Below, in pieces: positions 30,731-48,841 of a DNA stretch of 54,912 nt. Every line of letters starts with the position of its first letter. The first letter of the stretch is position 1. The stretch covers positions 1 to 54,912 of the forward strand of contig JARGPH010000015.1 of NCBI GenBank assembly GCA_029213065.1. Direction: 5' to 3'. The notes under the pieces are model-generated. The model was given only the letters and a program-made list of their open reading frames with translations, had not been told where the DNA came from and searched no databases. The translations under genes were made by a program, and so were the position numbers. Source of the stretch: Verrucomicrobiales bacterium. Its GTDB lineage: Bacteria > Verrucomicrobiota > Verrucomicrobiia > Verrucomicrobiales > DEV007.

Positions 30731-30754
30731 GATTCACCAACGCCAACCCCGGGG

Positions 30755-31125
30755 CTCTGCGGAGAAAGGCTCACGCCCTTCCTCTACTTTCCCGATCCAC
30801 GAGCGTAGAGGAATCCGTCAGGATTTCTTTCGCCTGTCCCCACCCCGCCCGGTACGCTCACCAACACCCCCCACAGACCTCTGCGGAGAAAGGCTCACGC
30901 CCTTCCTCTACTTTCCCGATCCACGAATGTAGAGGAATCCGTCAGGATTTCTTTCGCCTGTCCTTAGCCCGCCCGGTACGCTCACCAACCCCCCCCACAG
31001 ACCTCTGCGGAGAAAGGCTCACGCCCTTCCTCTACTTTTCCGATCCACGAATGTAGAGGAATCCGTCAGGATTTCTTTCGCCTGTCCCTACCCCGCTCGA
31101 TACGCTCACCAACGCCACACCGGGG
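30755..31125. repeat. Tandem array of three 124-bp REP/BIME-like units
   Basis: Three nearly identical direct repeats start at 30755, 30879 and 31003 (period 124; the last is 123). Each unit contains two imperfect hairpins placed head to head: the first ends in CCTCTAC, then a 17-base spacer, then GTAGAGG and a second hairpin around AATCC-GTCA-GGATT. The CTAC/GTAG feet next to hairpins match the layout of REP elements paired into a BIME. The array fills the space between convergent genes (propeller and VWA), the usual site for such elements. The remaining bases up to 31241 hold no gene; a weak inverted repeat with TTTTTC/GAAAAA is near 31151. Confidence 0.88.
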
Positions 31126-31241: not shown

Positions 31242-33857
31242 CTAGGACACCCGAAAAAGCCGCTTAAACTGATCTCCCACGCCCATGACGTTCTCCCAAC
31301 GCCTCACACAGAGATCGACGAGAAAGAGAGCGAGGAACAGCTTCATGAGGAGTGGCCACAACTCGTAATACCTCGCCACGTTTGTGCCGGTGAGTTCAAG
31401 CTTGGCGTAGGGTGAATCGAGGAAAGTCCCCCCGGTCATCTCACAGACTTTGCGGAGCAATTCCTCATCGACGCGACCGGTAGCCACCTCGCTCGACGGA
31501 TTGTGGACGTAGCCTGCGGATACGAGCTGGGATCCCGATCGCGCGCGGACAAGATAGACGCCGGGATCGACAGGTCTGAAATTGGCTTCATACCAACCGG
31601 GCCCTTCCTGATCGAGCGGCAAGGTTGCGAACTCCTTCATTCCCGATCCGAGGGCATTCGCGGGGACGTGGAAAATGTCCGCCTCAACCGTGGCACCATC
31701 TTTCCGGGTTCCCGCATCCTCGGCAAGATCGACTTCGATGTGAACATCCTCACCATCCTGTTCCAGTCGCAGGTCCATGTTCAGGCCCTGCGGTGGTCGA
31801 GCCGTTTCACGCAAAATCTGCGACCAGAGCTGGCTGTAGCCTTCCCAGTCGGAAACCCAGAGCGCGGCCCAGCGGGATTTACAATCGGAGGTGAAGGCGG
31901 TCACTTTCCCCAGCCCGAAGCGCCAGTGCGCGAGCAACGGATCCCCCGTGTCCGTCACCAGCGGGATCTGCGAAGTTGCCTTGCGATTCGTCTTCACATA
32001 GCCGAGGAGAGGCGGAGCAATACCGTCCTCCCAATCGCGGATCATGGGATGCTTCTCAACAATCATCGGCTCAAAGGCGTCTTCGCGAATCATGCGACCG
32101 GTGTGAGTCATCGTATCCTGAGTGAAAATCCGGACGATTGATCCCGGGTCCATCGTCACGTAGCTTTGCCCTCCACCCGCCGCTGCTATCGCCTGGAGCA
32201 AGCCGACCTGCGCACCCGAACCCACCGCCACCGTCGAGATCGTGATTCCCTCGGCCTGACATTGCGACGCGAGCGCCTGATAGCCCTGCCCCGAAGTCTG
32301 GCCATCGGTGAGAACAATCATGTGTTTGATCTTCGCTTTGACCTGATTGAGTTCCTCACGGGCCATCACCATCCCCGGATAAATATTCGTGCCGCCACCG
32401 GAACCCAGCAACGAGATCTGACTCGCAATCGTGCTCGTCGAAGTCACCTTCGTCATCGGGACAATCTCGTGAACCTGGGAATCGAAGGCGTAAATCCCGA
32501 TGGAATCCTTCGGGGAAAGGAGTTCGGCACTGGCGATTGCCGCTGACTTACAAATCTCAATCTTCTGTCCCGCCATGGAACCGGACCGGTCGATCACAAG
32601 AGCGAGTGCCGAGGACTGAAACTCCTCCTGATCGGGCGCCTTCAGCTTCACCGGCAGGATCTCCTCAATCGGAGTCCGGTAGTAACCACCGACGCCGAAC
32701 GAATTCATCCCGCCGATCATGACAAAGCCACCACCGAGCTTTTCGACATAGTCACGAATCGCAACCATGCGTCCCTCCCCGATGCGATGCGCCGGAATAT
32801 CGGAAAGGACGATCCCGTCGTAACCGGCCAACTCCTGAAGGCTGTTAGGCAAACCGTCCGGTGATCGCACATCGAGCCGAATCCCTTCACGGCTCATCGC
32901 ATCGACGAGATAGCGCGACTCGCCTTCTTCCCCTTCGACGTATAGCAGAAGCGGTTTTCCGCGAACGTCAACGATACTGAGCGCCTCGTTGTTCTCGGGG
33001 ATCGCGTCTTCCTCCTCAAACCCTTCAATGACAACGCGGTAGTTGTAGATATTACGTTTCTCAGGAACCCGCTTGAATCGCAAGGTCGTTAATTCCCCCG
33101 CGACCAGCTCGACATCGTTGGACTCGACCTCGATCCCGTTTTCAAAAAGTCTCACCCGTCCCGGCCCTGACAAAGAACTTTCGATCGTCGCCTCCAATTC
33201 AAGACTCGCTCCCTCATTCAAACGTGACTGGGAACTGACGAGACGCGTCACCCGCACATCGGGCTGAACCTCACCGGTGACACCGACGGCGTGAATCTTA
33301 ATCCCCGCGACGACCGCCTCACGCGCCAGCGCCATGAGCGAACCGGCCGTCTCAACACCGTCACCAACGAGAACGAGATGACGCGAAGAACCTCCCGGAA
33401 AAATCCCCTTCGCGAGACGGGCGGCCTGTTCAAAATTGGATCCGGAACCGATTTCCTCCATCAGCTCAGCTCCGCCATCGGCTTTTCCGGTGAAAGAATC
33501 ACTCGTAGGATTTCCGAGCAAACGGGGCTCACGTCCCGCTGCGACATAACCGACCTCAGAATCTCCGGAGAGAGACTCGCGCACAAGCCGCGCCGTCTCG
33601 TAAACCATCTTGAGCCCCTCGGCGCCCTGACTGCGACTGTGGTCGAGCACAAAAATAGCCGACTGATCTTTGCTCGGGAGTAATTTGGCGGGAGAGGCAA
33701 AAGCGATCAGGGCAAGAATCACCAACAAACAGCGAACGATGAGAAGGAAACGCTTCCTCTTCCCGTGCATGGGATGCGTCGACCTGGCATCGAACCAAAT
33801 CAGGAAAGCGACCGCGGGGACGATCAGAAAAAGAATCTGTGGGTAAAGCCAATCCAT
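31242..33857 (-). CDS. Large membrane protein with two VWA domains and a GATase1-like domain
   Basis: An 871-residue protein with two N-terminal membrane helices (about 8-22 and 37-55) and one near the C-terminus (about 838-855). The first VWA-like region carries D72-x-S74-x-S76 (VLDHSRSQ). A linker with a Rossmann-like, glutamine-amidotransferase-like part (GGGFVMIGGMNSFGVGGYY, about 375-393) follows. The second VWA has the complete metal site start D423-x-S425-x-S427 (VIDRSGSMAGQ) and GGGTNIYPGM and IVLTDG further on. This is the membrane VWA partner of MoxR/DUF58 systems, where a metal ion bridges the VWA domain to a ligand protein. It is last in the nine-gene minus-strand cluster, 12 bases after the BatA-type gene. 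Its exact role is not known. Confidence 0.92.
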   Translation of the reverse strand: MDWLYPQILFLIVPAVAFLIWFDARSTHPMHGKRKRFLLIVRCLLVILALIAFASPAKLLPSKDQSAIFVLDHSRSQGAEGLKMVYETARLVRESLSGDSEVGYVAAGREPRLLGNPTSDSFTGKADGGAELMEEIGSGSNFEQAARLAKGIFPGGSSRHLVLVGDGVETAGSLMALAREAVVAGIKIHAVGVTGEVQPDVRVTRLVSSQSRLNEGASLELEATIESSLSGPGRVRLFENGIEVESNDVELVAGELTTLRFKRVPEKRNIYNYRVVIEGFEEEDAIPENNEALSIVDVRGKPLLLYVEGEEGESRYLVDAMSREGIRLDVRSPDGLPNSLQELAGYDGIVLSDIPAHRIGEGRMVAIRDYVEKLGGGFVMIGGMNSFGVGGYYRTPIEEILPVKLKAPDQEEFQSSALALVIDRSGSMAGQKIEICKSAAIASAELLSPKDSIGIYAFDSQVHEIVPMTKVTSTSTIASQISLLGSGGGTNIYPGMVMAREELNQVKAKIKHMIVLTDGQTSGQGYQALASQCQAEGITISTVAVGSGAQVGLLQAIAAAGGGQSYVTMDPGSIVRIFTQDTMTHTGRMIREDAFEPMIVEKHPMIRDWEDGIAPPLLGYVKTNRKATSQIPLVTDTGDPLLAHWRFGLGKVTAFTSDCKSRWAALWVSDWEGYSQLWSQILRETARPPQGLNMDLRLEQDGEDVHIEVDLAEDAGTRKDGATVEADIFHVPANALGSGMKEFATLPLDQEGPGWYEANFRPVDPGVYLVRARSGSQLVSAGYVHNPSSEVATGRVDEELLRKVCEMTGGTFLDSPYAKLELTGTNVARYYELWPLLMKLFLALFLVDLCVRRWENVMGVGDQFKRLFRVS

Positions 33858-33869
33858 TAAAACAGTTTC

Positions 33870-35738
33870 CTAGTAGACGGCGTGACGGTGAAAGAGCCAA
33901 CTCTCGACGACGAGGAAGAGAACGATAAATGAAAGAAACCACCACTTGAGGTTCCCTGTGAACCGGGATGCCACCGCGAAATAATCGGATTCATTCGCGT
34001 CGACCTCACCGCCAGCCGCGATATTGCTTTCGCGCGCCGAAAGGAGATGAGCCGCCCCCTTCATTCCACTGTCAGTTTCCCAGATCCCGATCTGGTTCAT
34101 CTCCACGACATCCGATTCCAACTCAATTCGTCGACTTCCGCCCTGCCCCTCTTCCGCCCCGGTCCAGCGAATCTCAGTTCCCTCGACTTCGGCGAGCTCA
34201 CCTGTGGAAAGAAAATGCGCCCCGAGCTCACGCCCTTCATTCTGACGATCCACCGCCCAGAAAAGAGCATTGCCCATCAGCAATGGAAACGACGCCGTCA
34301 GTGGAAGGCGCTCGGAGAGCCCCGGAGAAAATCCCATGACGACAAGGCGCTGCCCTTCGACTTCGCCGGCGGCGAGAATAGGATCTTTCCCCGCAAACCA
34401 GAGCGGTTCCAACGATCCTTTCGCCTGAAGCAGCGCGGTCTGAGTCAAGGCGAGTCGGCTGCTGCTGATTCGAAAGAGAACCGGATGCTCTTCATTTCCA
34501 ACCCGAACCTGATCATAAGGGATTGCTGCGTCGAGTCTCCGCGCAAAGACAGGACCGAGAGATCCCGGCGGATTGATCACGATCACGGGAATATCGGTCG
34601 GCCACTTTTCGGGAAGCCAGCCATCGAAGATCACAGCATCAACCTCTTCGCTCAGGGGCCACGAATCAGCGCCCCCTTTCAGTAACTCAAAACTTCCCGA
34701 TTCCTGGATCGATGACAATGCAAAGCGGGTGTAGGGATCTTCCGCATCATCGGGACGAATCCAGGCGGCGAGAACCGGCTTGGGATCCGGAAGCGGGACG
34801 GCGACGATGTTGTCGAGAGTGAACTCGTCGCCCTCCGATTTCAGCTCCAGTTTCAATATCTGATCCCGTGAACCATTGATACGGAAAGTGACGCCCTTCT
34901 TTTCACCCGGTTCGAGATCGATTTCGCGGAACTGGCTGGGAATCCCGCCGACACTGACATTGAGCCGTACTTCATCTCCTTCCGGCGCCGCCTCGTTGAG
35001 AGCGACCTGCACATAGGCATCGTAACGCGCGTATTCGAGCGGAACCGGTCGAATCTCAAACGCGGTGATTCCCGCATTGCTGACCGAACCGAGGGCGAGA
35101 TTCAACTCACGGACAGATATGTTCGACTCCTCGAAAGCGGCCGCATCGAGAGCCTTATCGCTGACATGCCAGATTGCGGTGGGCGGTTCGAGACCCGCGA
35201 GCAGCTTTGCGGTCTCCTGCGCGAGATCGGCCCGGTCGGGAATGGGGCGAATCGTGACGCCATCGAGGCGGGAGATGAGCTCACGTCGTTTCGTTGTCCC
35301 CGGCTGCACCACCTCGGGGCGAATGTCATAGGCGACGAGAGAAACCGAAATCTCCTCGGGAACCAACTTGAGTCGCTCCTTGAGAATGCGCTTCCCCGCC
35401 TCCAGCCTGGTCTCACCGTCTTCATCTTTCACCGCCATGGAAGCGGATCGATCGAGGAGCACGACAATGGATCGATACTCATCAGCGTCATTGGAAGAAG
35501 CAACGATGCGGGAAAGCACAAAGACGGTAAACAGGAGAACGAGAAACGTAAGGAGAAAGGAGAGGAGCTTCTTGAGGCGCCGCAGCCAGGCCGATTCCTG
35601 GTGCTCACGCGCGAGTGTCTTGAAGAAAACCAGGGTCGAGACACTGACCTTCTTCGATCGGCGCCTGAAGAGGTACAGCATCACCGGGATGATCCCGAGA
35701 AGCAGAAGCCATAGCGATGCTGGTTGCAAAAACTGCAT
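33870..35738 (-). CDS. BatA-type VWA membrane protein
   Basis: A 622-residue protein. The N-terminus is the BatA domain: two helices (about 8-24 and 58-78) with MQFLQPASLWLLLLGIIPVM and the RRRSKKVSVSTLVFFKTL loop between. A VWA domain follows with D96-x-S98-x-S100 (LLDRSASMAVKD), then a region of beta-sandwich type (DEVRLNVSVGGIPSQFREID) and a C-terminal membrane helix (LKWWFLSFIVLFLVVESWLF). Such proteins stand next to MoxR and DUF58 in many bacteria, and are thought to act as envelope-located metal-dependent adaptors. It starts 11 bases after the DUF58 gene stop and is followed after 12 bases by the large VWA gene, so the three form a compact operon end. Confidence 0.93.
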   Translation of the reverse strand: MQFLQPASLWLLLLGIIPVMLYLFRRRSKKVSVSTLVFFKTLAREHQESAWLRRLKKLLSFLLTFLVLLFTVFVLSRIVASSNDADEYRSIVVLLDRSASMAVKDEDGETRLEAGKRILKERLKLVPEEISVSLVAYDIRPEVVQPGTTKRRELISRLDGVTIRPIPDRADLAQETAKLLAGLEPPTAIWHVSDKALDAAAFEESNISVRELNLALGSVSNAGITAFEIRPVPLEYARYDAYVQVALNEAAPEGDEVRLNVSVGGIPSQFREIDLEPGEKKGVTFRINGSRDQILKLELKSEGDEFTLDNIVAVPLPDPKPVLAAWIRPDDAEDPYTRFALSSIQESGSFELLKGGADSWPLSEEVDAVIFDGWLPEKWPTDIPVIVINPPGSLGPVFARRLDAAIPYDQVRVGNEEHPVLFRISSSRLALTQTALLQAKGSLEPLWFAGKDPILAAGEVEGQRLVVMGFSPGLSERLPLTASFPLLMGNALFWAVDRQNEGRELGAHFLSTGELAEVEGTEIRWTGAEEGQGGSRRIELESDVVEMNQIGIWETDSGMKGAAHLLSARESNIAAGGEVDANESDYFAVASRFTGNLKWWFLSFIVLFLVVESWLFHRHAVY

Positions 35739-35749
35739 AGAAAAGAAAA

Positions 35750-36673
35750 TCAGGCTCCGTTTCCGGCGAGCGCCGATCCGCGCGACAGCAATTCGAGAAA
35801 AAGTTCATCGAACGGGTAATCCGTCCGCCATCGTTGGTAATCAATCTGACGTTCCTGACAAGCCGTTTCGATATCTGTCAGGAATTCCTGATAACGCTCT
35901 TCGTAACGGGCACGGTCACGCGGCGTGAACCAGAGACGTCGCTCCTCTTTCGTTTCTACATCGAACAGTTCGATCTCACCGTCGAGGTCCGGCTTCTCCT
36001 CCCAGGGGTGGTAGACCTGAATAAAGTGTACCTCTCCCGGCCACTTGCTCGCATGACGAATCGCCTCGCGCGCCTCATTGATGTCATTTCCGTAAAGATC
36101 GGAGATCACAAAAATCACCCCGTAGCGACGTCGACTCGGCTGAAAGCGCTCGAAACACTTTTCAAGATTGGTGAGGCCTTCAAACTTCAGCTCGCTCGCA
36201 AAATCGAGAACCCGCTGGAAACTGCCCTGCCCTTTCAACGGCGGCGTCGTATCCCCGACATCGTCACCGATTTCGTAGAGGTTGACGCGGTGATGTCCCA
36301 CCAGGCCCATGTAGGCAAGCGCGACCGCGAGCTTCAGAGCGGTGCTTCGCTTCTCAGCAAACGGCTCCTTCATTGAAGCACTCGTATCGATCACAACATG
36401 AACGTGGAACTCCTGAATTTCCTCGTAGAGACGGATGAAGAGCTTGTCCAACCGCGCGTAGAGACGCCAGTCGATCGACCGGTAATCGTCGCGGGGCGTG
36501 TATTGACGAAAATCTTTGAACTCCCTCGTGTAACCGGTCGCGGGTGTTGACTGAATCCCTTTGCGACGCAGCTGCTTCCGCTTCCGAAGCCGCAGAAAAA
36601 GCGCTCTGAGCCGATCCAGAAAATCGGCGTCAAAAAGTTCTTCGTTATCGGATTTGGAATCGCTGGATGGCAT
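35750..36673 (-). CDS. DUF58 protein with degenerate VWA
   Basis: About 307 residues, cytosolic. The DUF58 signature DYRSIDWRLYARLDKLFIRL (63-82) is followed by EFHVHVVIDTSASM, where D96-x-S98-x-S100 keeps a VWA-type metal site. Family members are the constant companions of MoxR ATPases and may carry client proteins to them. I use the ATG at 36673; a TTG at 36697 would overlap the upstream stop. The upstream TPR/propeller gene ends 20 bases before. The C-terminal part ends FLELLSRGSALAGNGA without extra domains. Identification is strong; the client is unknown. Confidence 0.93.
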   Translation of the reverse strand: MPSSDSKSDNEELFDADFLDRLRALFLRLRKRKQLRRKGIQSTPATGYTREFKDFRQYTPRDDYRSIDWRLYARLDKLFIRLYEEIQEFHVHVVIDTSASMKEPFAEKRSTALKLAVALAYMGLVGHHRVNLYEIGDDVGDTTPPLKGQGSFQRVLDFASELKFEGLTNLEKCFERFQPSRRRYGVIFVISDLYGNDINEAREAIRHASKWPGEVHFIQVYHPWEEKPDLDGEIELFDVETKEERRLWFTPRDRARYEERYQEFLTDIETACQERQIDYQRWRTDYPFDELFLELLSRGSALAGNGA

Positions 36674-36693
36674 AACAGGCGGAAATCCCGCGG

Positions 36694-39600
36694 TCAATTA
36701 ACGGGAGCAGTGACAGGTGCGGGTTCGGCTGCCGGCGGGGCCGGAACGCGAAGACAGATCAGGGAACGCTGCGAGAACACCGTGTAATAATTCCCGTTCG
36801 AAACGAGATCCTCAACGGAAGTAAGAATGGCAAGATCGTTCCGCTTCCGCTGCGTGATGCGACCGCGCCAACTCTCTTCGGAAACAAGGGGCGCATTCTC
36901 CGGCTTCACCTGTTTCAGGTAGGCCTGCAGCGAATCCTCCCACAAGGTCTGCCCGATCACCTGTGCGGTGAGACCATTCACCACTTTGATGCCGATTCCG
37001 CCCCGGACGACGATTTGATTTCCGACGACGACAGCTCTCAGCGGTATCGCCTTTCCCAGATCGTCGAAAGCGAGTCGGGTCGATTTCTTTCTCAAAAAGT
37101 CGGCGTGAATGAGTTCGTTCTTTCTCAAAAACCACGCGTGATTTCCTATCACTCCGAGAAACGCACCGGCTGAGGGAAGTTCCTGAGAGATGAGAGGCAG
37201 TGAAGTCGAGACCCGCCTGACAGAGCCATCCTGAGTGAGCCAGAGATCCCCCCCACTGAGAGCGGCAAAGGAACCCTTCCCGTTTTGCAAACGGACCCCG
37301 GACCAGTAAACGGAGGGGCTCACCATCGAGGTTCCTTTTTCAAGCAGGTCCAGCGGAACAAGCGCCTCCTCTTCAAACATTGGAAACGGCAACATCGCAG
37401 ACGCCTCCGCCACCACTTCATCGCTAATCGAGGCAACTTTCACCGGCACCCCGGCTTCAGGAATGGACTCATCCTTGAATTTTTCCTCCCGAACCGTGAT
37501 CGGGAACCGGGCCTCCGAATCCCCCTGAAAGCTCCAAATCAGCTCACCGGTTTCCACATCGATAATCTCAGATCCGTATCCATAGAGGAAAGCCATCCCG
37601 CCATCGAGGGTGATCCCCGAATTCAGGGAAACCGGTTCGTAATCCGGCTTGTCCGGGATCTCGCCAAGCTTCCGATACCAGTGCAGCTTCCCGGTATTTC
37701 TATCGTAACCCGCCGCCTCCCGGGTTTCCGGTCTGAAAACAACGGTCAGCAAATCATTCGACTCAAACACTGTCCCCGGCAAACTCCCCTTTCTGGGAAG
37801 GCCGGAAGGCTTCGGCGGCGCGAAAGGCATCACCGCAGACCATTTCAATTCACCGCTGAGCGACTCGAAACATTGCAGTGAATCCCCGCGCATCATCAGA
37901 AAGCTGTCAGCACTCGCGTGGAAGGATGGAACGTCCCTCACCTGAAGCGCTCCGGAAGTGCCCTCTCCCGCCGCAATGACCGGACTTTCACCGGGGACCG
38001 CCCAGAGCGAGTCGTCCGCCACCTCGACCAACTTGCCTGAGGAAAACGATTTCTCCCAAAGCAACTTGCCGCTGAGCCGGTCCACGGCGTGAACCGTGGC
38101 AATATCGTCGACAATGAGAACGACATCACCTGACTGGGCAAAGCGAACGATGCGCTGCCTTTCCTCCAACTCGAAGGCCCAGCCTAGCTCCGGCTGCTGC
38201 AGCAGAAACGAAGCATCACCGCCCGAACTCGCGAGGTCGACGACCCTGCTTTGTTCAAGGAGGTCGAAAGCCGCCTTTGCATCAAGGGTGAGCCCGTCGG
38301 GGAAACGGACCGACTTCAAACCCGTTTGCTTGAGCTCTCCTTCAAATTGAAGCCGCGCACCGGCGGCATCAGCAGTCCGACCCAGCTCCCCGAGAATGAA
38401 TGCCCGACTCCAGAACGACCACAACTTTGCCCCCGCCTCCATATCCTCACGACCAATCAAGGAAAGATACGGCAACATCTCTTCCATTTTCTTCGCATCG
38501 CCGTCATGCAGGAGCTCCCCCATGGAGCGGTAGTAGGAAGCGAGGAGATGATCCCGCAAAATAACGTCGGTAGAAGCGCGAAGCTTCATCCCCGCATCGC
38601 CCCCCCTCAGTGAGCGAATCACCGAGCGGAAAATCTTTTCTCTCCCGTTCGCGGCGAGCAAGCCAAGTCGTTTCTCCCAGCTGAACACATCCGAGGGCTG
38701 AAGTCGGTTGATCGTTTCGAGGGCGCGTTCGGCCTCCTCGTGAAACCCATACTCGATCAGCACCGGAACCGTCTCGCGGAGCAAATCCGCCGACTCCACT
38801 TCGCTGTAATCGACTTCGGCGAGAATCTTCTCGGAAAAGTCGAGTCGCAGGCTGCGATGATACGCCATCCCGGTTCGCAGCTGATACTCAAGTTCATTCG
38901 CGGGATCCTCGGACTTCAACTCAGTGAGCAAGTGGATCACTTCATCGACCGATGTGACCTCCTCTTCGAGAACGCTGACGAGAAACCGTTTGAGACGCAA
39001 CCGCAGATCCGCTGCCAGAGTGGTTTGAGCGAGCTGCTCCCGAATACCTGCGGCGACGCGCTCCGTGAAAAGCCGCTGCTTCCCGAACTCACTCAACAAC
39101 ATAAACCGCTCCACTTTCTCCGGTGACCAGGCTCCGTTTGAGAAGCTGTAACGGGCCTGTTCCTGATCGAAGAATCCCTCAACCACTTCAAATTTCGCAC
39201 TCGCACGCATCGCCGTCTCCAGCCATTTCGAATACCGCGCTGAACTGTCGGCGAGCTCCCTGACGCGGTCGATTTGAATCTGCGCCGCACCGCGATCGCC
39301 TATCTCACTTTCCGCCTGAATGAGGAGCAGCCCCAACTCGAACTGCGAAGCGTCGGTCGCAATCTTCTCGCCGAGGATCTGCTTTGCACCGATCGGAAAT
39401 CCCTGAGCGAGGAGAAACTCGACGAAGTCGATCAGATTCTCCAACTCGGCCGCCGCCGCATCGACCCTGCCGACGAGCGAGTTCACTTCATTCGGCTTCT
39501 TGAGCTTCACGTAAATTTCCGCCAACTCCCTCGCGACATCGAGACGCGCCGGGTGATTCCGCAGATAGCGTTCCAGATAAGTGCCCGCCGCGTCGATTCG

Positions 39601-40812: not shown

Positions 40813-40843
40813 CGCTCTCAAACACCTGGCACGGGCTGACGAA

Positions 40844-40896
40844 GGAACGAGTTTCGTTCCTCTACGGAGCACTTGTAGAGGAACGAAACTCGTTCC
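40844..40896. repeat. Perfect 22-bp inverted REP pair with 9-base centre
   Basis: The 22-base arm at 40844-40865 is an exact reverse complement of 40875-40896. Each arm is itself a small palindrome (GGAACGA and TCGTTCC around a 3-base loop), and the inner ends are CTAC and GTAG. A hairpin next to GTAG is the signature of REP elements, and two in inverted order form a BIME. It sits in the 175-base gap between the MoxR gene stop and the TPR/propeller start and may shape the mRNA between them. Confidence 0.85.
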
Positions 40897-40940
40897 CCTT
40901 CGAAGCCTAACCGGCAGCCGATGTAAGTTAAATTTGATAA

Positions 40941-40954
40941 GCTTTAGCTAAAGC
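40941..40954. repeat. 14-base perfect palindrome GCTTTAGCTAAAGC
   Basis: Within the same spacer after the MoxR gene, 40941-40954 is a perfect 14-base palindrome. It may be a short operator or part of an RNA hairpin before the TPR/propeller gene. Nothing else in the spacer is recognisable. Confidence 0.5.
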
Positions 40955-40987
40955 AGATGGTTTGAAAGATGCCGCGTTTCCCGAACT

Positions 40988-41995
40988 CTAAGCGGAGACG
41001 TTCGTCGAGATCGATTCGATCACCGCGTTGATGAGAGCATCGATATTCTTCGACTCCGCTTCCCCCTGGAAATTGAGGATGACACGGTGGCGAAGTGATG
41101 AAAGGGCAACGCGCTGAATGTCTTCAACCGAAACCGTGGTTCGTCCATCGAGGGCACAGATGACACGGGCACCGCGCACGAGGGCCTGCATTCCCCGGGG
41201 GCTCGCACCATAGCTGACGTATTTCTCAACTTCGCCGGGGTGCTCCCGCATCTCGGGATGCGTTCCCAGAATAATCTGCGCCGCATAGTGCGTGATGTGA
41301 TCCGCAATCGGAACCCGCGAAACGATCTCCTGAAATTCCTTGATCTCATCGGAGGTGATGATTTTCTTCAGCTCGGGAGCGTCGAATCCGGAAGTCCGCT
41401 TCGAAATCTCAACGAGGGTTTCGCGATCGGGAAACGGGACCCGCAGTTTGAAAAGAAAGCGGTCCGCCTGCGCCTCGGGGAGCGGGTAAGTGCCTTCCAT
41501 CTCCATCGGGTTCTGCGTAGCCATGACGAAAAACGGCTTCGGAAGGACGAGCGTTTCGCCGCCGGCGGTGACCGAACCTTCCTGCATCACTTCGAGGAGC
41601 GCCGCCTGCGTTTTCGGGGTGGCGCGGTTCACCTCATCAACGAGAATGAGATTCGCAAAAACCGGGCCTTTCTCGAAGTGCATGACGCGTCGACCTTCCT
41701 CATTTTCGTTCACGATGTGCGTTCCGAGAATGTCCGCCGGCATCAGATCCGGTGTACACTGGATACGTCCCGATTCCAGTCCCATCACTTTCGACAAGGT
41801 CTGAACGAGGAAGGTCTTTCCGAGACCGGGAACCCCTTCGAGGAGAATGTGCCCTCTCGCAAAAACGGCCACGAGGGTGTCGGTGAGAAGCTCGTCATAC
41901 CCGACGATCGCCTTCTGGATCTCATCCTTCAGATCCTTAAATTTCGCCTGGAAGCGCTCCAGATCTTTTTCGAGTTCGTTACTGTCTGTCATCAA
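40988..41995 (-). CDS. MoxR-family AAA+ ATPase
   Basis: A 335-residue cytosolic AAA+ ATPase of the MoxR/RavA group. Walker A is GVPGLGKT (54-61), Walker B ILVDE (117-121) with NRATPKTQAALLEVMQEG after it, and sensor 1 is ATQNPMEMEGTYPLPEAQAD (159-178). MoxR ATPases act as chaperones that use ATP to mature or remodel protein complexes together with VWA-domain partners, here surely DUF58, the BatA-type protein and the large VWA protein on the same strand. The start has two adjacent ATG codons; the choice changes one residue. A perfect 19-base palindrome at 42006-42024 lies just upstream of the ATG. Confidence 0.96.
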   Translation of the reverse strand: MMTDSNELEKDLERFQAKFKDLKDEIQKAIVGYDELLTDTLVAVFARGHILLEGVPGLGKTFLVQTLSKVMGLESGRIQCTPDLMPADILGTHIVNENEEGRRVMHFEKGPVFANLILVDEVNRATPKTQAALLEVMQEGSVTAGGETLVLPKPFFVMATQNPMEMEGTYPLPEAQADRFLFKLRVPFPDRETLVEISKRTSGFDAPELKKIITSDEIKEFQEIVSRVPIADHITHYAAQIILGTHPEMREHPGEVEKYVSYGASPRGMQALVRGARVICALDGRTTVSVEDIQRVALSSLRHRVILNFQGEAESKNIDALINAVIESISTNVSA

Positions 41996-42005
41996 ATTTA
42001 ATAGG

Positions 42006-42024
42006 GTTAAGTCACTGACTTAAC
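42006..42024. promoter_or_regulatory. Palindrome immediately upstream of the MoxR gene (operator candidate)
   Basis: GTTAAGTCA and TGACTTAAC are separated by one C, forming a perfect 9+1+9 dyad (42006-42024). It lies about 10 bases upstream of the MoxR ATG (41995, minus strand) inside the 91-base gap after the small membrane protein gene. Position and symmetry suit a repressor or activator site, but it could also be a repeat. No -10/-35 pair is clear. Confidence 0.45.
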
Positions 42025-42086
42025 AGGGTTGGGTCCGGCACTAAAGAGGGTTGGAAAGGAGTTGAAAGGTCCGGTGCATATTCTGG

Positions 42087-42494
42087 CTAAGCCCCGAAAT
42101 TTGCTATGATTAATATCACGACCGCAATTGCAACGCCAATCAGCACATACTGCCAGGCAACGGCCATCAATCCTAAGGAAATAGCTCCACCGGATATCCT
42201 TATGTGATCCTTCTTAACCCAGGAGAATATACCTAAGATCATCGCGATAAACCCCAAAATCATGTAGGTCAAATCGACACCATCGTATAAAGCTACAACC
42301 CGAGGCTCCGCTATCGGCTGTGAATCAGATTCCGGACTGAGAAACTTTTCAGTGAGAAACTTCTTTCCTGCTTCAGACGCAACCTCCTTCAGCGTCGGCT
42401 CCGGAGGTTGGGGACGAAGGGCATCTTGGAAAATGGCTAAGCCAAGAGCGATTAACCCTACAACTAACCCGATGATGCCTATTCTATGTTTCAT
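42087..42494 (-). CDS. Small membrane protein inside the MoxR cluster
   Basis: A 135-residue membrane protein that I do not recognise. It has an N-terminal helix (about 4-22), a charged external or cytosolic part (DALRPQPPEP...KKFLTEKFLSPE, about 25-70), and two helices near the C-terminus (about 76-93 and 102-131). The ATG at 42494 is preceded by AAAAAGGA at good distance, a clearer ribosome site than its neighbours have. The gene is noticeably richer in A and T than the flanking genes, so it may have been inserted into the cluster. It lies 47 bases after the coiled-coil gene stop and 91 bases before the MoxR start. Confidence 0.65.
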   Translation of the reverse strand: MKHRIGIIGLVVGLIALGLAIFQDALRPQPPEPTLKEVASEAGKKFLTEKFLSPESDSQPIAEPRVVALYDGVDLTYMILGFIAMILGIFSWVKKDHIRISGGAISLGLMAVAWQYVLIGVAIAVVILIIANFGA

Positions 42495-42541
42495 GGGATG
42501 TTCCTTTTTCTCAACTCGATCAGGTCTCGTTGGGAGCAACG

Positions 42542-44524
42542 TTATTCAGCAGGGTCGGCCTCTTCAAATTGTTTACGAATCGCGGAAAAATACCGCAAAA
42601 CATGTTTACGTCGTGAAAGTGGGAGGGTCTGTCCGTCGAGAGCCTGTTCTTCGGCGGCGAGGTAATCGGTCACGATTTCCTGCCGGGTGCGTTCGACCGA
42701 TTCGTTGCGCACTTTTCCATCAACCGCGCGGAAGGTCGAATCGCCGTTGTCATTGATTTGCGCGACCACTTCCGAGTCGCGGGCTGCCTTCGTGGCTTCG
42801 CTTTGATCGTCGATCATTTCGGCGGTGCCGGAACCGGCTTCGTTGCCCCCCTGCCCGGCCTGACTCATTCCCGCCTGAGACGCGGTCACTCCCTGGCCGG
42901 GTGTTGGCGCTTTTGCATCCATCCCCGGAACCGGTGCACTGAGCATGCCTCCTCTGCCTTTTCCGTCACGGGCGTTTTCGCTCATCTGCATGCCAGAGCC
43001 AGACTGTCCCTGAGGCGGCGCTTCCCCCGGAATCGGTGCCCCGAAGGCCTGCTGGGAATTGGGATTGCTCTCGCTCGTTTCGTCGCCCTCCCCCGGAGCC
43101 TGACCGGGAACAGGAACCTGTTTCGAGCCTTCACCGGATTGCTCGCCCGGTTTTTGCTGTCCCGGTGACGGATTCCCCGCTTCCGGAGACTGACCGCTCT
43201 GAGCCATGTGGGGAGCGGTCATCTTCTTAATATCGTTGGAAACCGGATCGGAATCGAGTGACTGCAAACCGCCTCCACCGCCCTGCTGTCCGGCTTCACC
43301 GGAACTGGATTCATCGGCGATCTGCTCCATTCGATCGAGGTCGGAACCGCTGATCTCGCTTCCCGCCTCGCGGAGAGAGCTGGCCATCTGCTCGAGTTTC
43401 TCCTGCGCCTCCTCGCGACTGTCGATGAGCCGGAAATACTTGGCGAGCTCTTCAAATTCGCGGGCGGCCGTTTTCGTCTGCGCATTGAGTAACTTGATCG
43501 AAGCGTTGCCGACCCGCTCTCCGACCGGCTTGGTTTTGTCCTCGTCCGTCGCCGCTGTCATGATGCTTTCCATGACCCGCGTGAGCCGCTCCTGCGTCTC
43601 GATCTGAATGTCATCGCCGTTCAGGATTCCCTGAAGCGTCATCGCTTCATCCGCAGCACCGGAAGCTGACTTGTCCTTGATCGCGAGCCCCAGATCAGCG
43701 GTATCGGGGTGGCTTCGCATTTCGGTGAGCATTTCTTCAGAGGCCCAACCGTCGTCGGTGAGGCCCAGTTTTTCGGCAAGTCGCTCCGCAGCGCGGGCGC
43801 GGGACTCGAGTGCCTCGAGCATTTCACCGGCAGTGAGGTCATCGGACTCAGCTAAATCCTCCGCAACCGAATCGACCTCGGCACGTAACTTCTCGAACTC
43901 GGCTTTCTCCTCTTCGGTGAGAGCATTCAAATCCTCGAAACGGGCTGCTTCCTTTTTAAGTTCGTCGGCTTCCAGTGCCGCGACTTCTTTCATCCCGTCT
44001 GACAACTTCACATCGGCGGAATCAATCGGAAGTCGTCCGAAAGGACTCAGAGAAAAGAGCAAAGCGATCAACGGTGCCACCCAGATCCAACGCAGGCTGG
44101 GAAAAGGAAGCACACCCGGTAAATTCGAAAGCGCCTCGGGAAGGACCCCGCCGGACTTCTTAACGTGCAGGGTTTGCGCCTCGTTCATCTCGCCGCCGCT
44201 CAGAAACGCCCAGGCCGAGGAAAAACGGTCTTTCCATCCCCCTTTTCGATCGAGAAGAAGAAGCGATTCCATCACTCTGGGACGACCCACCCGGGAAAGA
44301 ATGAACCCGATCACCGCCCACAACACGAGAATGGCTAGAACGAAGGCCCATTCCCCCTCGCGCCACTCACCAAACCGGCGCAGTGCGAGAACGATGAACA
44401 GGGCGGCCGCTGCCGCAATCCAATGGCCCCTTTTCAACCAGCGAAGAAAACGCAAGGCCCCGACGCGACGGCGAACTGCTTCGGAAGCAGCCTCATAGTC
44501 GCTAATCTGTAGGGATTCGTTCAA
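42542..44524 (-). CDS. Coiled-coil, Gln/Gly-rich membrane protein (DUF4175-like)
   Basis: A 660-residue protein with three N-terminal membrane helices (about 34-49, 59-78 and 146-161), then a long Glu/Ala-rich helical region (about 175-400, for example LNALTEEEKAEFEKLRAEV), and then a low-complexity Gly/Pro/Gln/Ser part (about 405-590, GEQSGEGSKQVPVPGQAPGE kind). It resembles the DUF4175 and related proteins that accompany MoxR-DUF58-VWA genes in other bacteria, but this is by layout, not by a conserved motif I can cite. It should be inner-membrane-anchored with a large extracytoplasmic or cytosolic stalk; topology is not decidable. Its ends abut the secreted-paralogue gene (57 bases) and the small membrane protein gene. 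Confidence 0.7.
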   Translation of the reverse strand: MNESLQISDYEAASEAVRRRVGALRFLRWLKRGHWIAAAAALFIVLALRRFGEWREGEWAFVLAILVLWAVIGFILSRVGRPRVMESLLLLDRKGGWKDRFSSAWAFLSGGEMNEAQTLHVKKSGGVLPEALSNLPGVLPFPSLRWIWVAPLIALLFSLSPFGRLPIDSADVKLSDGMKEVAALEADELKKEAARFEDLNALTEEEKAEFEKLRAEVDSVAEDLAESDDLTAGEMLEALESRARAAERLAEKLGLTDDGWASEEMLTEMRSHPDTADLGLAIKDKSASGAADEAMTLQGILNGDDIQIETQERLTRVMESIMTAATDEDKTKPVGERVGNASIKLLNAQTKTAAREFEELAKYFRLIDSREEAQEKLEQMASSLREAGSEISGSDLDRMEQIADESSSGEAGQQGGGGGLQSLDSDPVSNDIKKMTAPHMAQSGQSPEAGNPSPGQQKPGEQSGEGSKQVPVPGQAPGEGDETSESNPNSQQAFGAPIPGEAPPQGQSGSGMQMSENARDGKGRGGMLSAPVPGMDAKAPTPGQGVTASQAGMSQAGQGGNEAGSGTAEMIDDQSEATKAARDSEVVAQINDNGDSTFRAVDGKVRNESVERTRQEIVTDYLAAEEQALDGQTLPLSRRKHVLRYFSAIRKQFEEADPAE

Positions 44525-44581
44525 GGTAGGAGAAATAGAAATTTTTCCGGCGTGGTATCACCTTCGTCCGGATGAAGTGGC

Positions 44582-46639
44582 TTAGTCGAGGTTCTTGAGA
44601 ACCCGGTCAATACGACGGGCGACTTCAACGTCGTCCGTTGCCTGACGTTCACGCCGGAGAACTGAGCCGGCAAGGTAGCCAAATGCGCCTAGTTCCAACG
44701 TGGCGCGTTCGCGTTCAGCCCATGAGGAATTGCCGAGCAATGCGACAAGCTCTTTGATTTTGGCGGTATTCTCCGCATTCAGGGAAGGAAGCGGCATCTC
44801 GATCATTTCGACATCCTGAGCTGGAATACTCATTGCGGCATCCTCTACCGAAACGGAAACAATCCCGCTGCTGAAGGTTCCCTCAATGATGCCCCCGTCC
44901 CAACGTTCGATGCGGAAGTTCGGTTTCTGCGACGAAAGCACATTGGCGGCGAGAGCGCTCCGCGGGGTTTGAAGAAGGCGGCGAATCTCCCGGGCCGGTG
45001 TCGCGATCGGCACTTGGTCGCTCAGGAGAACGATTTCCGAATTTCCGACCGTGCCGATCACTTTCTGAAAACCGGAAAGATGAACAGCAGACTTTCCGGC
45101 CTCCGGTTCAAAGGGAATCGCATTCTCATTTCGATTTTCGGTGACAAAGCTTCGCACCGATGCGTGAGGAATCGTAACCGGTCCCAGTCGGTCGATTTCC
45201 AATTGAAGTTCATCCTCACCCGGGAAAATCCGAAGCTCGCTGCCGTCTACGAGCTGAACCCGATAACCGGGAGAGGTCGCATCAGGGTAGAGACGCGCCA
45301 CCTGATCCAGCGAAACCGGAACAACGCCCCAGGGGGTGATCCCCTCGATGGAAACGCCCGATGGATTTTTAAGGAGAAGACGATCGCCTCCGAACGTTTC
45401 CAGCAGCGTCCGCGCAACTTGTGATGGAGCGACCTGCTTTTTCGCGAGGACGAGTCGGTCGAGCTTATCCATCTCGATGACCATCTTCGTGCCGCTCTTC
45501 TGTTTGAAGACGAAATCCGGAGCGGAAATCGACCCCGAGAGGATCTGGCCGTCGCGTAGATAAAGTCGCTCTTTGCCGCCTCCCTGGAACTTTCCGCCGG
45601 TAATCGCAGCAATAGCTTCCAGCGCCACTTCGGCCTCGCCAAACGGCGTCGTGATGACGATGCCCGGACTCGATGCCGCGCCGGGCAGTCGGGTCGTGCC
45701 GCCCACCGCAAGCGTATCGGACTCACCGGGCTCCATATCGAGTGCTTCGAATCCGGCGATGGGAAAGTGCTCATTCAGCCCGAGCCGGTCGTTGCTCACA
45801 TTCAAGACAAACCGCTCCCACTGGGAATCGAGAACCGTGTCTGACTGGCTCAGGGCATAAGGACTGAAAAGACGGAGCAGGGTTCTGCGATCGAAATTCC
45901 CCGGAATCATGACCTGGGCGACACGATGCAAAATCACACCGGTTTCGCCCGGAGCGAGATCCACCTGATAGCGAAAGGTGAGGCCGTAGCGATTCTGCGC
46001 GGAAACGGTCGGTTTGATTGCACTCCCCGCATCGGCGAGCGAAAAGAGAAACGCCTTCGTCGATTGCGAAGCGCCCGGCAAGACGAGAATTCCGCTTTCC
46101 CCCTCTCCGAGAATGACAGGCTCGCTCGTTCCCCTGTCACTGATAAAATGCTTGTAGTTCCCTGAGAAATTAGTCGTCAGTCCGACCGTGAACGTGATCG
46201 GGTCCGTCGAACCGTTGTAGAAAATTTCCGCGAAGCGAAGTCCGCCTCCGGTATCATCGCCGGAAAGATTGGCTCCTCCCGCAACCGAAGAGGTGATCAA
46301 TTTGATCCTCCGCTGCATCTTCAACCCCGGGATCGATTCGACGGGGCGTCCACGGAGAATGAACTCATTTCCGTCGCGCGACATCATCGGCTGGAAGCTG
46401 GTAAACGCCTCGTCGTTGACCGTAAGGACGAGTCCACTGTTAACCATCGTGCTGCCGATGCGGCCGATCGTTCCGTTCGACTCGATATTCCAGGAGTTGC
46501 CCTGCTTATCGGTCCGTATTCCCATCGCAGCCGGAACCACTCCGGGAGCAGGGGCCTCGCGAGACGCCTTCTCCTGAGCAAACGACACGCCCCCGCCTAC
46601 CAGCGTAACGAACACGGTTACGAGGAAAGTTTTTCTCAT
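44582..46639 (-). CDS. Secreted protein of unknown function, paralogue A
   Basis: About 685 residues with a signal peptide (MRKTFLVTVFVTLVGGGVSF, cleavage near FAQEK). The mature part has beta-rich segments without known motifs (WNIESNGTIGRIGSTMVNSG, FRYQVDLAPGETGVILHRVA, YGLTFRYQ) and a C-terminal helical tail (LGNSSWAERERATLELGAFG, HEAT-like). It is a diverged duplicate of the next gene upstream: both have the W-x-x-x-S/T-x-G start, an SG-x-x-L-x-V repeat and a shared middle with ETGVILHR against ETASLYHW. An ATG at 46663, coupled by ATGA to the upstream stop, is an alternative start but spoils the signal peptide. Members act in the envelope; role unknown. Confidence 0.7.
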   Translation of the reverse strand: MRKTFLVTVFVTLVGGGVSFAQEKASREAPAPGVVPAAMGIRTDKQGNSWNIESNGTIGRIGSTMVNSGLVLTVNDEAFTSFQPMMSRDGNEFILRGRPVESIPGLKMQRRIKLITSSVAGGANLSGDDTGGGLRFAEIFYNGSTDPITFTVGLTTNFSGNYKHFISDRGTSEPVILGEGESGILVLPGASQSTKAFLFSLADAGSAIKPTVSAQNRYGLTFRYQVDLAPGETGVILHRVAQVMIPGNFDRRTLLRLFSPYALSQSDTVLDSQWERFVLNVSNDRLGLNEHFPIAGFEALDMEPGESDTLAVGGTTRLPGAASSPGIVITTPFGEAEVALEAIAAITGGKFQGGGKERLYLRDGQILSGSISAPDFVFKQKSGTKMVIEMDKLDRLVLAKKQVAPSQVARTLLETFGGDRLLLKNPSGVSIEGITPWGVVPVSLDQVARLYPDATSPGYRVQLVDGSELRIFPGEDELQLEIDRLGPVTIPHASVRSFVTENRNENAIPFEPEAGKSAVHLSGFQKVIGTVGNSEIVLLSDQVPIATPAREIRRLLQTPRSALAANVLSSQKPNFRIERWDGGIIEGTFSSGIVSVSVEDAAMSIPAQDVEMIEMPLPSLNAENTAKIKELVALLGNSSWAERERATLELGAFGYLAGSVLRRERQATDDVEVARRIDRVLKNLD

Positions 46640-46659
46640 ACAACTGGGTGGAATCAAAA

Positions 46660-48651
46660 TCATTTTGCTTTCGCTTCGCCGGGCGCAGCTCTGTAGGATT
46701 GCAGATAGGCCACCGGAATCTCAATGGCTTTGCCGTCCAGAGCGATCCCGAAGAGCGGCGATACGGGTGAACCGGAAATACGATCTCCGCTTTTTAAAAC
46801 GATCTCAAATCTCAGCGGATCGCTCCCCGCATCCCTTCCCGGTCGCGTCAGCGAGACAATGTTTTCTGTTGCGACTGAAAGGCTCGCCCTTCCGTCATTA
46901 AAGGCAATCATCTCATCCTCGAAACGGCCTGCGAGAACCGTGTTTCCCGAAAGGAGAAATCCGCCTGCCGGGGCGATTGATTTCGGAATCTCGGCAAACT
47001 CGATCCACTGGCCCGACCGCGCGGAAACCTCCAGGCTCGTCGCGCCTGTTTTCCAAATCGCATCCAGCATCACCATGGGAAATTCAATCGTTTTCCCGTC
47101 GAGCCCCTTGAATGAACCGCTTTCCATCGGGAGGAAGGCATTGAATACCGATCCGGCACCGGTCCGTAAAATGAATCCCGGATTCGGGCTCGAGATATAC
47201 CCCAACTCGACAAGGTCGCTGAGACTGATTTGGCCGGCTCCCCACGAAGCGGTGTAATCGAGAGGCTCACTGCTGCTGCCGTCGACTGCGAGAATCACGC
47301 CGCTGCTGAATTTCACAAAATGAGTCGCTTTCGCCGGAGGCGCCCCGTCAGACACTTCGGTGCCGAGAAGGAGCAGTTGAATTTCATCAATACTCAGAGA
47401 TTTGGTGGATTCGCCAACCTTCCAATCGAACTTGGCCTCGGCGAGATCACCGGTAAGGACTTCCCCGTTCCGCAAGTAGAGGAAAGGCTTCATCTCGTTT
47501 CCTGAGTTGCCCCGGATCGCCGCAATTTGTGCCAGAGGAACGACCCGCTCGCCGAATTCATTGCCGGTTATCGTCAGGCTCCCGGTCCGGCTCAGTTCAC
47601 CGGAAATTTGATTGGTTTGCCCCAGCCAGTGCGCATCAGTGCGACGACGGTGCCATCCGATCTGATCCATGAGCTCATTCAAAGCGAGAAGCTCACGCAA
47701 CCGCGAAGGAGCAGCCGTTTCATCGGGAAAGGCCGAGCGGGGAAAATTCACCACCGAGACGGCCTGCAGACTCGATACGCCGGGATTGATGAGCTGATTG
47801 CGCTGCGAGAACTGAGGGATCACTTCAGCGGCCGAGGCGGGAGACTGAAGATTCCGCTGCATCATCCAATGGTAAAGAGAAGCGGTTTCGCCGGCCTTGA
47901 TCGAGAGATTGTATTGGAAGGTGAGTTCACGGGAATTTGTCGAGGCTTGCAGGGCGGGCTCGCCCCCTTCCGCATCCGTCCCCGTCAGGAAAAGAGTATC
48001 GTGACGACCTTCCGCCGGACTGAAATGGACGGTGAGCCCGTTGTCATTCTCGTCCAGTCGCAAAACAGGATCACTCGAAAGTAGATCGCCCCCGGTATCG
48101 TGAAGACTCTGCCATCCGAACGGGTAGGTCGTGCGCAAGACCACGACGACATCGACGGGGTTCGCCCCTGTGTTTTTGATCGAATCGAAAAAGCGAACAC
48201 CGGACCGTTTCGTATCGATCCAGACATCCCGGGAAATAACGAGGTCTTTGCGGGTCTCGGTGAACACGGCATCGATCTTCGAAACGCCTTCCCCGGGAGC
48301 GCGGACCAGTGCTTCGCCGGGCGCGAAAACCGCGTTATCGACGAGAAGATTCATCCCCGACTGGAGATACTGAGTTTCACCGGAAGTGAGGGCTCCGTTT
48401 CCGGTGAGTTGCCAGAAAAACCCGTCCTGATCCTGAACCTGAAAAAGACTGTCTGGAATATCGACAATCTTCTTCGGTGCGACGTCCTGACTCTGCGCGA
48501 TTGGCATCCCTGCGACCGATATGAGGACGGCAATGGCACCTGCTTGAATCGAAGCGGAAATCGACCGGAAAGGCGTCAAAGGAACCGCCCCGAACGGGTT
48601 AATTTTCTCGGCCAATTGCAGGCTTTTTGAGGGGCGGTGGTTCACGATCAT
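46660..48651 (-). CDS. Secreted protein of unknown function, paralogue B
   Basis: A 663-residue exported protein, first of the nine-gene cluster. The N-terminus is long before the hydrophobic core (SASIQAGAIAVLISVAGMPI, about 31-50; cleavage near AQSQD), so the start could lie further in. The mature part mirrors the next gene: FWQLTGNGALTSGETQYLQS, then a beta-rich middle (LTFQYNLSIKAGETASLYHW) and a segment with PLRFEIVLKSGDRISGSPVS near the end. No catalytic motif is seen. The stop overlaps the alternative ATG of the next gene by ATGA. A promoter for the cluster should lie in the 190-base divergent spacer up to 48841. Confidence 0.7.
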   Translation of the reverse strand: MIVNHRPSKSLQLAEKINPFGAVPLTPFRSISASIQAGAIAVLISVAGMPIAQSQDVAPKKIVDIPDSLFQVQDQDGFFWQLTGNGALTSGETQYLQSGMNLLVDNAVFAPGEALVRAPGEGVSKIDAVFTETRKDLVISRDVWIDTKRSGVRFFDSIKNTGANPVDVVVVLRTTYPFGWQSLHDTGGDLLSSDPVLRLDENDNGLTVHFSPAEGRHDTLFLTGTDAEGGEPALQASTNSRELTFQYNLSIKAGETASLYHWMMQRNLQSPASAAEVIPQFSQRNQLINPGVSSLQAVSVVNFPRSAFPDETAAPSRLRELLALNELMDQIGWHRRRTDAHWLGQTNQISGELSRTGSLTITGNEFGERVVPLAQIAAIRGNSGNEMKPFLYLRNGEVLTGDLAEAKFDWKVGESTKSLSIDEIQLLLLGTEVSDGAPPAKATHFVKFSSGVILAVDGSSSEPLDYTASWGAGQISLSDLVELGYISSPNPGFILRTGAGSVFNAFLPMESGSFKGLDGKTIEFPMVMLDAIWKTGATSLEVSARSGQWIEFAEIPKSIAPAGGFLLSGNTVLAGRFEDEMIAFNDGRASLSVATENIVSLTRPGRDAGSDPLRFEIVLKSGDRISGSPVSPLFGIALDGKAIEIPVAYLQSYRAAPGEAKAK

Positions 48652-48841
48652 AAATGGTAACGAATATCAAAGCGTTGGAAACCCAAATTTTCCTCAGTTT
48701 AATTGCTCATTGTGGCTAAAATGGGGCATTTGGGACGTTTTTACCTTGTTTTGCCACAAAATGAAGACGCCCCCGGCCTTCCCTGACCGCGTGCCACGAA
48801 GAGACTTGCCAGAGCGATCCACAACCGGGTAACTTCAGGCT
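48652..48841. promoter_or_regulatory. Divergent spacer upstream of the nine-gene cluster
   Basis: About 190 bases between the secreted paralogue B (minus) and the isomerase-like gene (plus). TGTGGC near 48711 and GCCACA near 48753 form a widely spaced 6-base dyad. The region is AT-rich in the middle and should hold two promoters, but none can be assigned firmly. Confidence 0.3.

Follow-up and report, generated by a model that had tools for sequence, protein, structure and literature searches.

The minus-strand gene cluster at positions 31242 to 48651 of a 54,912-nucleotide stretch of DNA from a Verrucomicrobiales bacterium (contig JARGPH010000015.1; the whole stretch is referred to here as the window) is best read as a new variant of the MoxR/VWA (Bat-like) envelope machinery in bacteria of the Planctomycetes-Verrucomicrobia-Chlamydiae (PVC) group. 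We regard it as a conserved PVC operon in which an inner-membrane MoxR/VWA machine is combined with an added periplasmic module, and we give this reading, for which both mechanism and substrate are inferred, a probability of about one half. The conserved genes are, in order, B, A, QG, MoxR, TPR/propeller, DUF58, BatA and large VWA, where A and B are paralogous secreted-type proteins, QG is a protein with a Gln/Gly/Pro-rich tail, and the TPR/propeller is a giant of tetratricopeptide repeat (TPR) and beta-propeller sequence. This gene content and order recur in other genomes, the ATPase and metal-site motifs are intact, and A and the TPR/propeller co-occur.

Open reading frame calling across the whole window identified nine long frames between 31242 and 48651, all on the minus strand. 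As an earlier note on this DNA had claimed, these are nine consecutive minus-strand genes in the order given there, starting at 48651 and ending at 31242, with most gaps shorter than 100 bases (seven of eight; from B to large VWA the gaps measure -4, 57, 2, 91, 115, -4, 11 and 12 bp). The first gene, B (46660..48651), encodes a protein of 663 aa and is followed by A (44582..46663; 693 aa), QG (42542..44524; 660 aa), a small membrane protein of 150 aa (42087..42539), the MoxR AAA+ ATPase (40988..41995), the TPR/propeller giant (36694..40872), the DUF58 VWA-like protein (35750..36697), the BatA-type VWA protein (33870..35738) and the large VWA protein (31242..33857). The 190-bp gap between B and a divergent sugar-isomerase-like gene (48652..48841) is the likely site of the operon promoter. 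A scan for sigma-70-type promoters gave none in this gap, and neither promoter-like (2 versus 5.0 expected) nor terminator-like sites (26 versus 23.3) rose above shuffled sequence, so that the argument for co-transcription is the gene spacing alone.

With respect to conservation of gene order, a single-sequence search with A (E<=0.001) matched 43 of the 141 genomes of the order, and 40 of these 43 loci were examined, the window itself and the loci of genomes G005 and G130 being left out. The chain B-A-QG-MoxR-TPR/propeller-DUF58-BatA-large VWA was complete on one strand in 17 of the 40 (including L041 and L057, where the contig ends within the last gene). Ten further loci agreed until the contig or stretch ended, over two genes (L046) to seven (L050); by eye L042 contains all but the large VWA gene, and L065, L058 and L067 contain only the first part of the chain. 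The full chain was also present in 5 of 17 Planctomycetota loci, namely L143 (Pirellulales), L148, L216, L217 and L221, with the last gene of L143 and L148 cut by the end of the stretch. Seven more of these loci agreed until a cut (L132 among them by eye), L222, L223 and L225 carried A with none of the other genes in at least 5 kb downstream, and L220 and L224 were cut directly past A; L133 was not counted, as its A and B are on a different contig, at its end. The earlier note had named loss of A/B and the TPR/propeller from the neighborhood of MoxR in relatives as a finding that would refute it, and by this test it was not refuted, the loci agreeing until a cut adding 17 of the 57 to those with complete order.

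When species of bacteria and archaea were scanned with the QG profile, 91 relatives were returned, of which 80 were kept, at 77 loci, and these came from Verrucomicrobiales, Akkermansiaceae, Verrucomicrobium, Prosthecobacter, other Verrucomicrobiota and a few Planctomycetota. As to the description of the system as PVC-specific, this single QG scan bears on it in part: every one of the 77 loci but one was titled Verrucomicrobiota or Planctomycetota; that one, L132, is titled 'uncultured bacterium' and its genome (G488) belongs to the same phylum as the Pirellulales genome. The profiles of A and the TPR/propeller were run in these two phyla. In a tree of 36 TPR/propeller rows, seven planctomycete sequences were split from the 29 others with a Shimodaira-Hasegawa-like approximate likelihood ratio test (SH-aLRT) value of 83. 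The branch of L221 was very long in this tree, and the composition of many rows was unusual; the split is compatible with old shared inheritance or with one old transfer. No shared flanking partner was found among the eight largest flank families per side (at least three loci each, window excluded, among the loci listed), the largest being present in 15 of 46 loci and possibly a shadow reading frame. A protein which by eye is FHA-like lies upstream of the cluster in 4 of the 46 (L147:152-1975, L079, L080 and L084), and this was the sole flank family among those listed which visibly included a Planctomycetota locus (L147).

The proteins shared with other MoxR systems were readily assigned by Pfam. 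MoxR matched AAA_3 (196.9 bits) and AAA_lid_2 (66.7 bits), its closest solved structure was 2r44 (E 4.9e-76), and both Walker A (GVPGLGKT) and Walker B (LVDEVNR) are intact. The DUF58 protein (DUF58, 103.7 bits) is without a transmembrane segment, the BatA-type protein matched the BatA N-terminal family (35.8 bits) and VWA_2 (32.3 bits), and the large VWA protein matched VWA (90.7 bits) and GATase1_like (80.3 bits), the latter together with the second of its two VWA-like regions. Four D-x-S-x-S metal sites had been claimed, and all were present, at D104 of DUF58, D96 of BatA, and D72 (VWA-like region 1) and D423 (region 2) of the large VWA protein; the bare pattern also occurs at three further places, two in QG and one in B. 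Among homologues (rows including the window) each large-VWA site was conserved in 25 of 25 and the BatA site in 37 of 37, while for DUF58 the counts were 40/40 (D104), 39/40 (S106) and 40/40 (S108). BatA and the large VWA protein each carry a pair of transmembrane-like segments at the N-terminus and a third at the C-terminus, with loops that are positively charged, and these flanking charges place their VWA domains outside, in the predicted periplasm. The same topology has been measured for the Borrelia BatA-type protein BB0173 (PMC5700661).

QG had no Pfam or NCBIfam family above cut-off. It appears from its sequence to consist of a membrane anchor and a long helical region ahead of the Gln/Gly/Pro-rich tail, and a C-terminal block, LPLSRR..VLRYF, is conserved. 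The motif P[VI]PG occurred at a mean of 2.08 per protein in 86 QG sequences (whole proteins) versus 0.01 in shuffled tails, and 56 of the 86 contained two or more copies; these motifs are a possible binding repeat. In the window they lie at QG residues 470-534 (approximately 42920-43117). Membership of QG in DUF4175 (PF13779) was considered and rejected, with no match in its own genome at E<=1. The small membrane protein, which had been counted as a cluster member, did not hold up as one. Among the loci examined (loci rather than whole genomes were searched) its matches were confined to its own genome, apart from one further match at chance level (E 0.99); it is probably outside the system, and the conserved unit is accordingly one of eight genes. 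At the same position, between QG and MoxR, L085 (11963-13471) and L042 carry a 1.5-kb insertion, which by eye we take to be an AbrB-like/PIN-like toxin-antitoxin pair.

A and B likewise had no Pfam or NCBIfam family above cut-off. That they are paralogues, as previously suggested, was confirmed by hhalign (568 columns, 100% probability, E 3.7e-84), and single-sequence search gave 26% identity (E 5.1e-17). In an aligned-window test of N-termini, a signal-like hydrophobic segment was present in 70 of 71 A, 36 of 37 B and 36 of 36 TPR/propeller sequences, as compared with 3 of 58 MoxR and 1 of 40 DUF58 controls; an earlier signal-peptide heuristic was discarded, being positive also in 29 of 57 MoxR proteins. 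The AlphaFold2 model of A (mean predicted local distance difference test score, pLDDT, 82.9; predicted template modelling score, pTM, 0.55) predicts a supersandwich (galactose-mutarotase-like) beta domain at residues 42-252 (45908..46540), six tandem beta repeats of about 45 aa at residues 316-622 (44798..45718), and a HEAT-like four-helix tail at residues 630-691 (44591..44776), a module found in many other PVC proteins. This tail makes up most of the listed matches in the search with A in which 143 of 294 Planctomycetota-group genomes matched.

Among the 50 fold matches listed, the modelled N-domain of A aligned over 185-218 residues with Z of 12.7-15.1 and a root-mean-square deviation of 2.9-4.3, and its predicted fold relatives include GH94/GH65-type and mutarotase domains; Foldseek lists YidC as well. 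In GH94/GH65 enzymes a catalytic helical barrel follows the supersandwich. In the model of A the supersandwich appears to be followed by beta repeats and one small helical tail, with no catalytic helical barrel. A sequence search of the repeats against solved structures gave nothing notable (best E 0.17), the A repeat profile had no Sm match, and the B profile matched an Sm-like protein weakly (E 0.58); the fold comparison barely covers the repeat region, where an Sm/LSm or another fold not among its matches may occur. The giant matched TPR_19 (37.9 bits) and PQQ_2 (38.7 bits), with TPR at approximately residues 46-880 and a propeller of pyrroloquinoline quinone (PQQ)/BamB-like type at approximately 890-1392. 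Its length of 1372 residues, as first given, holds from the ATG; from the GTG at 40872, 20 codons earlier, it is 1392 aa. By sequence the propeller was closest to tetrathionate hydrolase and BamB, with quinoproteins scoring weaker. Assignment of the giant to the BamB family was rejected (TIGR03300, 21.8 bits versus a cut-off of 285.2).

Presence and absence of these genes divided the system into two layers. Among the 141 genomes of the order the TPR/propeller was found in 42 (profile search, 1e-30 threshold) and QG in 76, with 8 candidates scored per genome for A, 4 for the TPR/propeller and 8 for QG. A and the TPR/propeller were both present in 41 genomes and both absent from 97, while two had A only and one the TPR/propeller only (Fisher p 6e-32, a value which ignores relatedness). 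The three discordant genomes were G005 (83% complete), G135 (79% complete) and G130. In G130, which is Prosthecobacter-like and 89% complete, a remnant of A with two stops was found at C329:9346-9696 with no TPR/propeller match, which suggests joint decay of the two genes. At least 11 of the 41 genomes (G011, G016, G023, G031, G033, G043, G056, G066, G074, G082 and G133) have the two genes on separate contigs or with over 1 Mb between them. QG was present in all 44 genomes with A or the TPR/propeller, and was alone in 32, all of the Verrucomicrobiaceae-like family f4. In the Planctomycetota group, where 3 candidates per genome were scored for A and 2 for the TPR/propeller, the latter was found in 13 of 294 genomes, all 13 with full or partial A.

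The core, consisting of QG, MoxR, DUF58, BatA and large VWA, can occur alone. It was found without the module at L227, whose genome (G004) also had no A or TPR/propeller matches, and, at the level of the locus, at L107. L231 and L232, which belong to the class but lie outside the order, combine MoxR-DUF58-BatA-large VWA with a remote relative of QG (E 2.4e-11 and 1.9e-10), and neither A, B nor this TPR/propeller was found in the 20 kb examined. In both (L232:10336-19998 and L231:2-4339) differing giant TPR proteins, of at least 3221 aa upstream and at least 1446 aa downstream, lie next to the core on its own strand, so that a giant TPR partner may be a recurring feature. Since the core is also found on its own, while A and the TPR/propeller track each other, B, A and the TPR/propeller form an optional secreted-type module, an add-on to the core. 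The earlier proposal that they make up an outer part of the machine stands to the extent that they behave in this manner.

From the predicted topology, MoxR and DUF58 would be cytoplasmic, BatA and the large VWA protein would be inner-membrane proteins whose VWA domains project into the periplasm, and the QG tail, the TPR/propeller, A and B would lie outside the cytoplasm. MoxR may hydrolyse ATP and, with DUF58 as an adaptor, remodel a membrane complex of BatA, large VWA and QG, whose metal-dependent VWA faces would next capture segments of periplasmic partners and let them go. The TPR/propeller could serve as a docking scaffold, and A and B could be envelope proteins under assembly or substrate-holding subunits; the predicted supersandwich domain suggests that they bind glycan or polypeptide rather than act as catalysts. 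The net effect would be the assembly or maintenance of an envelope complex. Such a role is in keeping with the description of MoxR proteins as chaperone-like maturation factors, one of which, Rhizobium RL3499, is described as important for membrane integrity and morphology (PMC3893208). A bolder form, which we put forward as a tentative and rather unlikely proposal, is a trans-envelope machine powered by ATP and unique to PVC bacteria, with MoxR/DUF58 in the cytoplasm, VWA hands in the periplasm, the P[VI]PG tail of QG, and the TPR/propeller as a scaffold presenting A and B to envelope glycan or outer-membrane material; A and B would then represent a new class of proteins that, on the predicted model, join a supersandwich to tandem small beta repeats.

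Several observations weigh against the operon being a dedicated machine with its own module. A, with or without B, lies apart from QG in 9 of the 40 loci of the order, and Prosthecobacter-like genomes scatter the operon, QG being mostly alone. Five Planctomycetota-group genomes (G648, G508, G525, G570 and G564) have A (E 2.5e-30 or better) and no TPR/propeller match, where misses are possible because only 2-3 candidates were scored per genome. The agreement between A and the TPR/propeller largely reflects common ancestry. A tree of QG was built from 51 genomes, comprising every one of the 42 QG-positive genomes of family f4, eight from the family of the window, and G005. On this tree A required 6 changes and the TPR/propeller 5, and well-supported branches gave only three independent pairs (median p 0.25, not significant), which on average comprised 2.6 changing the same way, 0 the opposite way and 0.4 showing no difference; counting the G130 fragment as A gave 2.4 the same way (p 0.5). 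The fold of A reveals no function. In favor of the main reading, A was also seen beside a second MoxR system, in the single case of the Prosthecobacter locus L069 (917-17183), where a PPC-domain protein, A, MoxR-DUF58-DUF4381-BatA-BatB-BatD (DUF4381 below cut-off) and a small GTPase-like gene share one strand and A lies less than 100 bp upstream of this classical Bat operon with its BatD and VWA-TPR BatB.

That arrangement also counts in favor of another explanation, in which the cluster is a Bat-type system for tolerance of oxidative, heat or envelope stress (aerotolerance included), with A, B and the TPR/propeller as accessories and no specific complex assembled. The MoxR-DUF58-BatA core is held in common with Bat, and Riemerella moxR and batA mutants have stress phenotypes (PMC11834572), although envelope defects could in themselves cause such phenotypes. 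The cluster is without BatD or a VWA-TPR BatB, both of which the same Pfam library detected in L069, and brings proteins of its own, namely QG, the large VWA-GATase protein, the TPR/propeller, A and B; we consider this explanation possible but unlikely. An unlikely alternative is that A and B are glycan-handling proteins which are merely co-expressed with a general MoxR system. The N-domain is nearest to GH94/GH65-type and mutarotase domains, and sugar-isomerase-like and Gfo/Idh-type genes adjoin the cluster in the window, but the supersandwich fold occurs in YidC too and A/B remain linked to the MoxR and TPR/propeller genes across two phyla.

The propeller itself brings two further systems into consideration. 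MoxR is important for activation of methanol dehydrogenase in methylotrophs (PMC3893208), and a similar Mxa-like role, in which PQQ or a metal is loaded into the PQQ-type propeller of the giant, would fit its Pfam match; as quinoproteins score below the closest sequence matches of this propeller, and Pfam and NCBIfam show no quinoprotein dehydrogenase among the nine genes, such a role is very doubtful. We disfavor still more strongly a 'ternary' conflict (immune) system of MoxR, VWA and beta-propeller proteins, a class reported in planctomycetes and verrucomicrobia whose third protein typically has a C-terminal TPR and propeller (PMC7159879). The MoxR of the cluster does score above the cut-off of the bpMoxR model (51.3 versus 27 bits; general MoxR model, 196.9), but in the account given of that class the VWA protein strictly carries the propeller and the P-loop is often GXXXTAKS (PMC7159879), whereas here large VWA, BatA and DUF58 are without a propeller match and the P-loop is GVPGLGKT. 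PADLOC gave one weak match, to MoxR (20.9 bits), the other eight proteins having no match at E<=0.001, and a defense system was rejected; the two PHROGs matches were both at chance level.

MoxR/VWA clusters are widespread and clients are known for few of them. A conserved, self-contained version with secreted-type partners provides named genes as a starting point for finding the targets of a machine of this kind, in bacteria whose envelopes are unusual, and adds A and B as paralogous families not recognised by Pfam or NCBIfam. Genetic removal of the A, B and TPR/propeller module would be feasible in an isolate of Verrucomicrobium; one that carries the cluster is Verrucomicrobium sp. BvORR034 (L108). 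In the open-access literature searched, no title or abstract start dealt with this eight-gene cluster, and the main text of the Verrucomicrobium spinosum essential-genome paper (PMC12283558) does not contain the terms VWA, Willebrand, AAA or tetratricopeptide.

Beyond the end of the operon, at 30734-31116, the window contains three tandem copies of 135 nt each with 124-nt spacing, which are 90% alike and hold TTCCTCTAC...GTAGAGGAA ends. They sit between the operon end and a convergent PQQ-propeller gene.

Compared with known systems, the cluster resembles the Bat operon in bringing together MoxR, DUF58 and a BatA-type VWA protein, in including a TPR protein, and in its BatA-type topology. It differs in that none of its nine proteins matches BatD (L069 control, 8e-19) and none of its VWA proteins matches TPR, as the BatB control from L069 does, and in having QG, the large VWA-GATase protein, the TPR/propeller giant, A and B. 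In the absence of BatD and a VWA-TPR BatB it is not classed as a Bat operon. The operon RL3499-RL3502 of Rhizobium leguminosarum is similar as a MoxR operon tied to envelope integrity and cell morphology (described in PMC3893208 and PMC5700661). MoxR-vWA-beta-propeller ternary systems, as described in PMC7159879, also combine MoxR, VWA and a TPR-plus-propeller protein, while in the cluster the propeller is off the VWA protein, the P-loop is ordinary, and DUF58 and a BatA-type protein are present. The predicted N-domain of A shares its fold with supersandwich proteins such as GH94/GH65-type enzymes, galactose mutarotase and the periplasmic domain of YidC, although A as modelled has neither catalytic barrel nor insertase part and instead has six beta repeats and a HEAT-like tail. 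Finally, BamB structures are among the sequence matches of the giant's propeller, but this propeller is set behind approximately 850 residues of TPR-type sequence and scores far below the BamB family cut-off.

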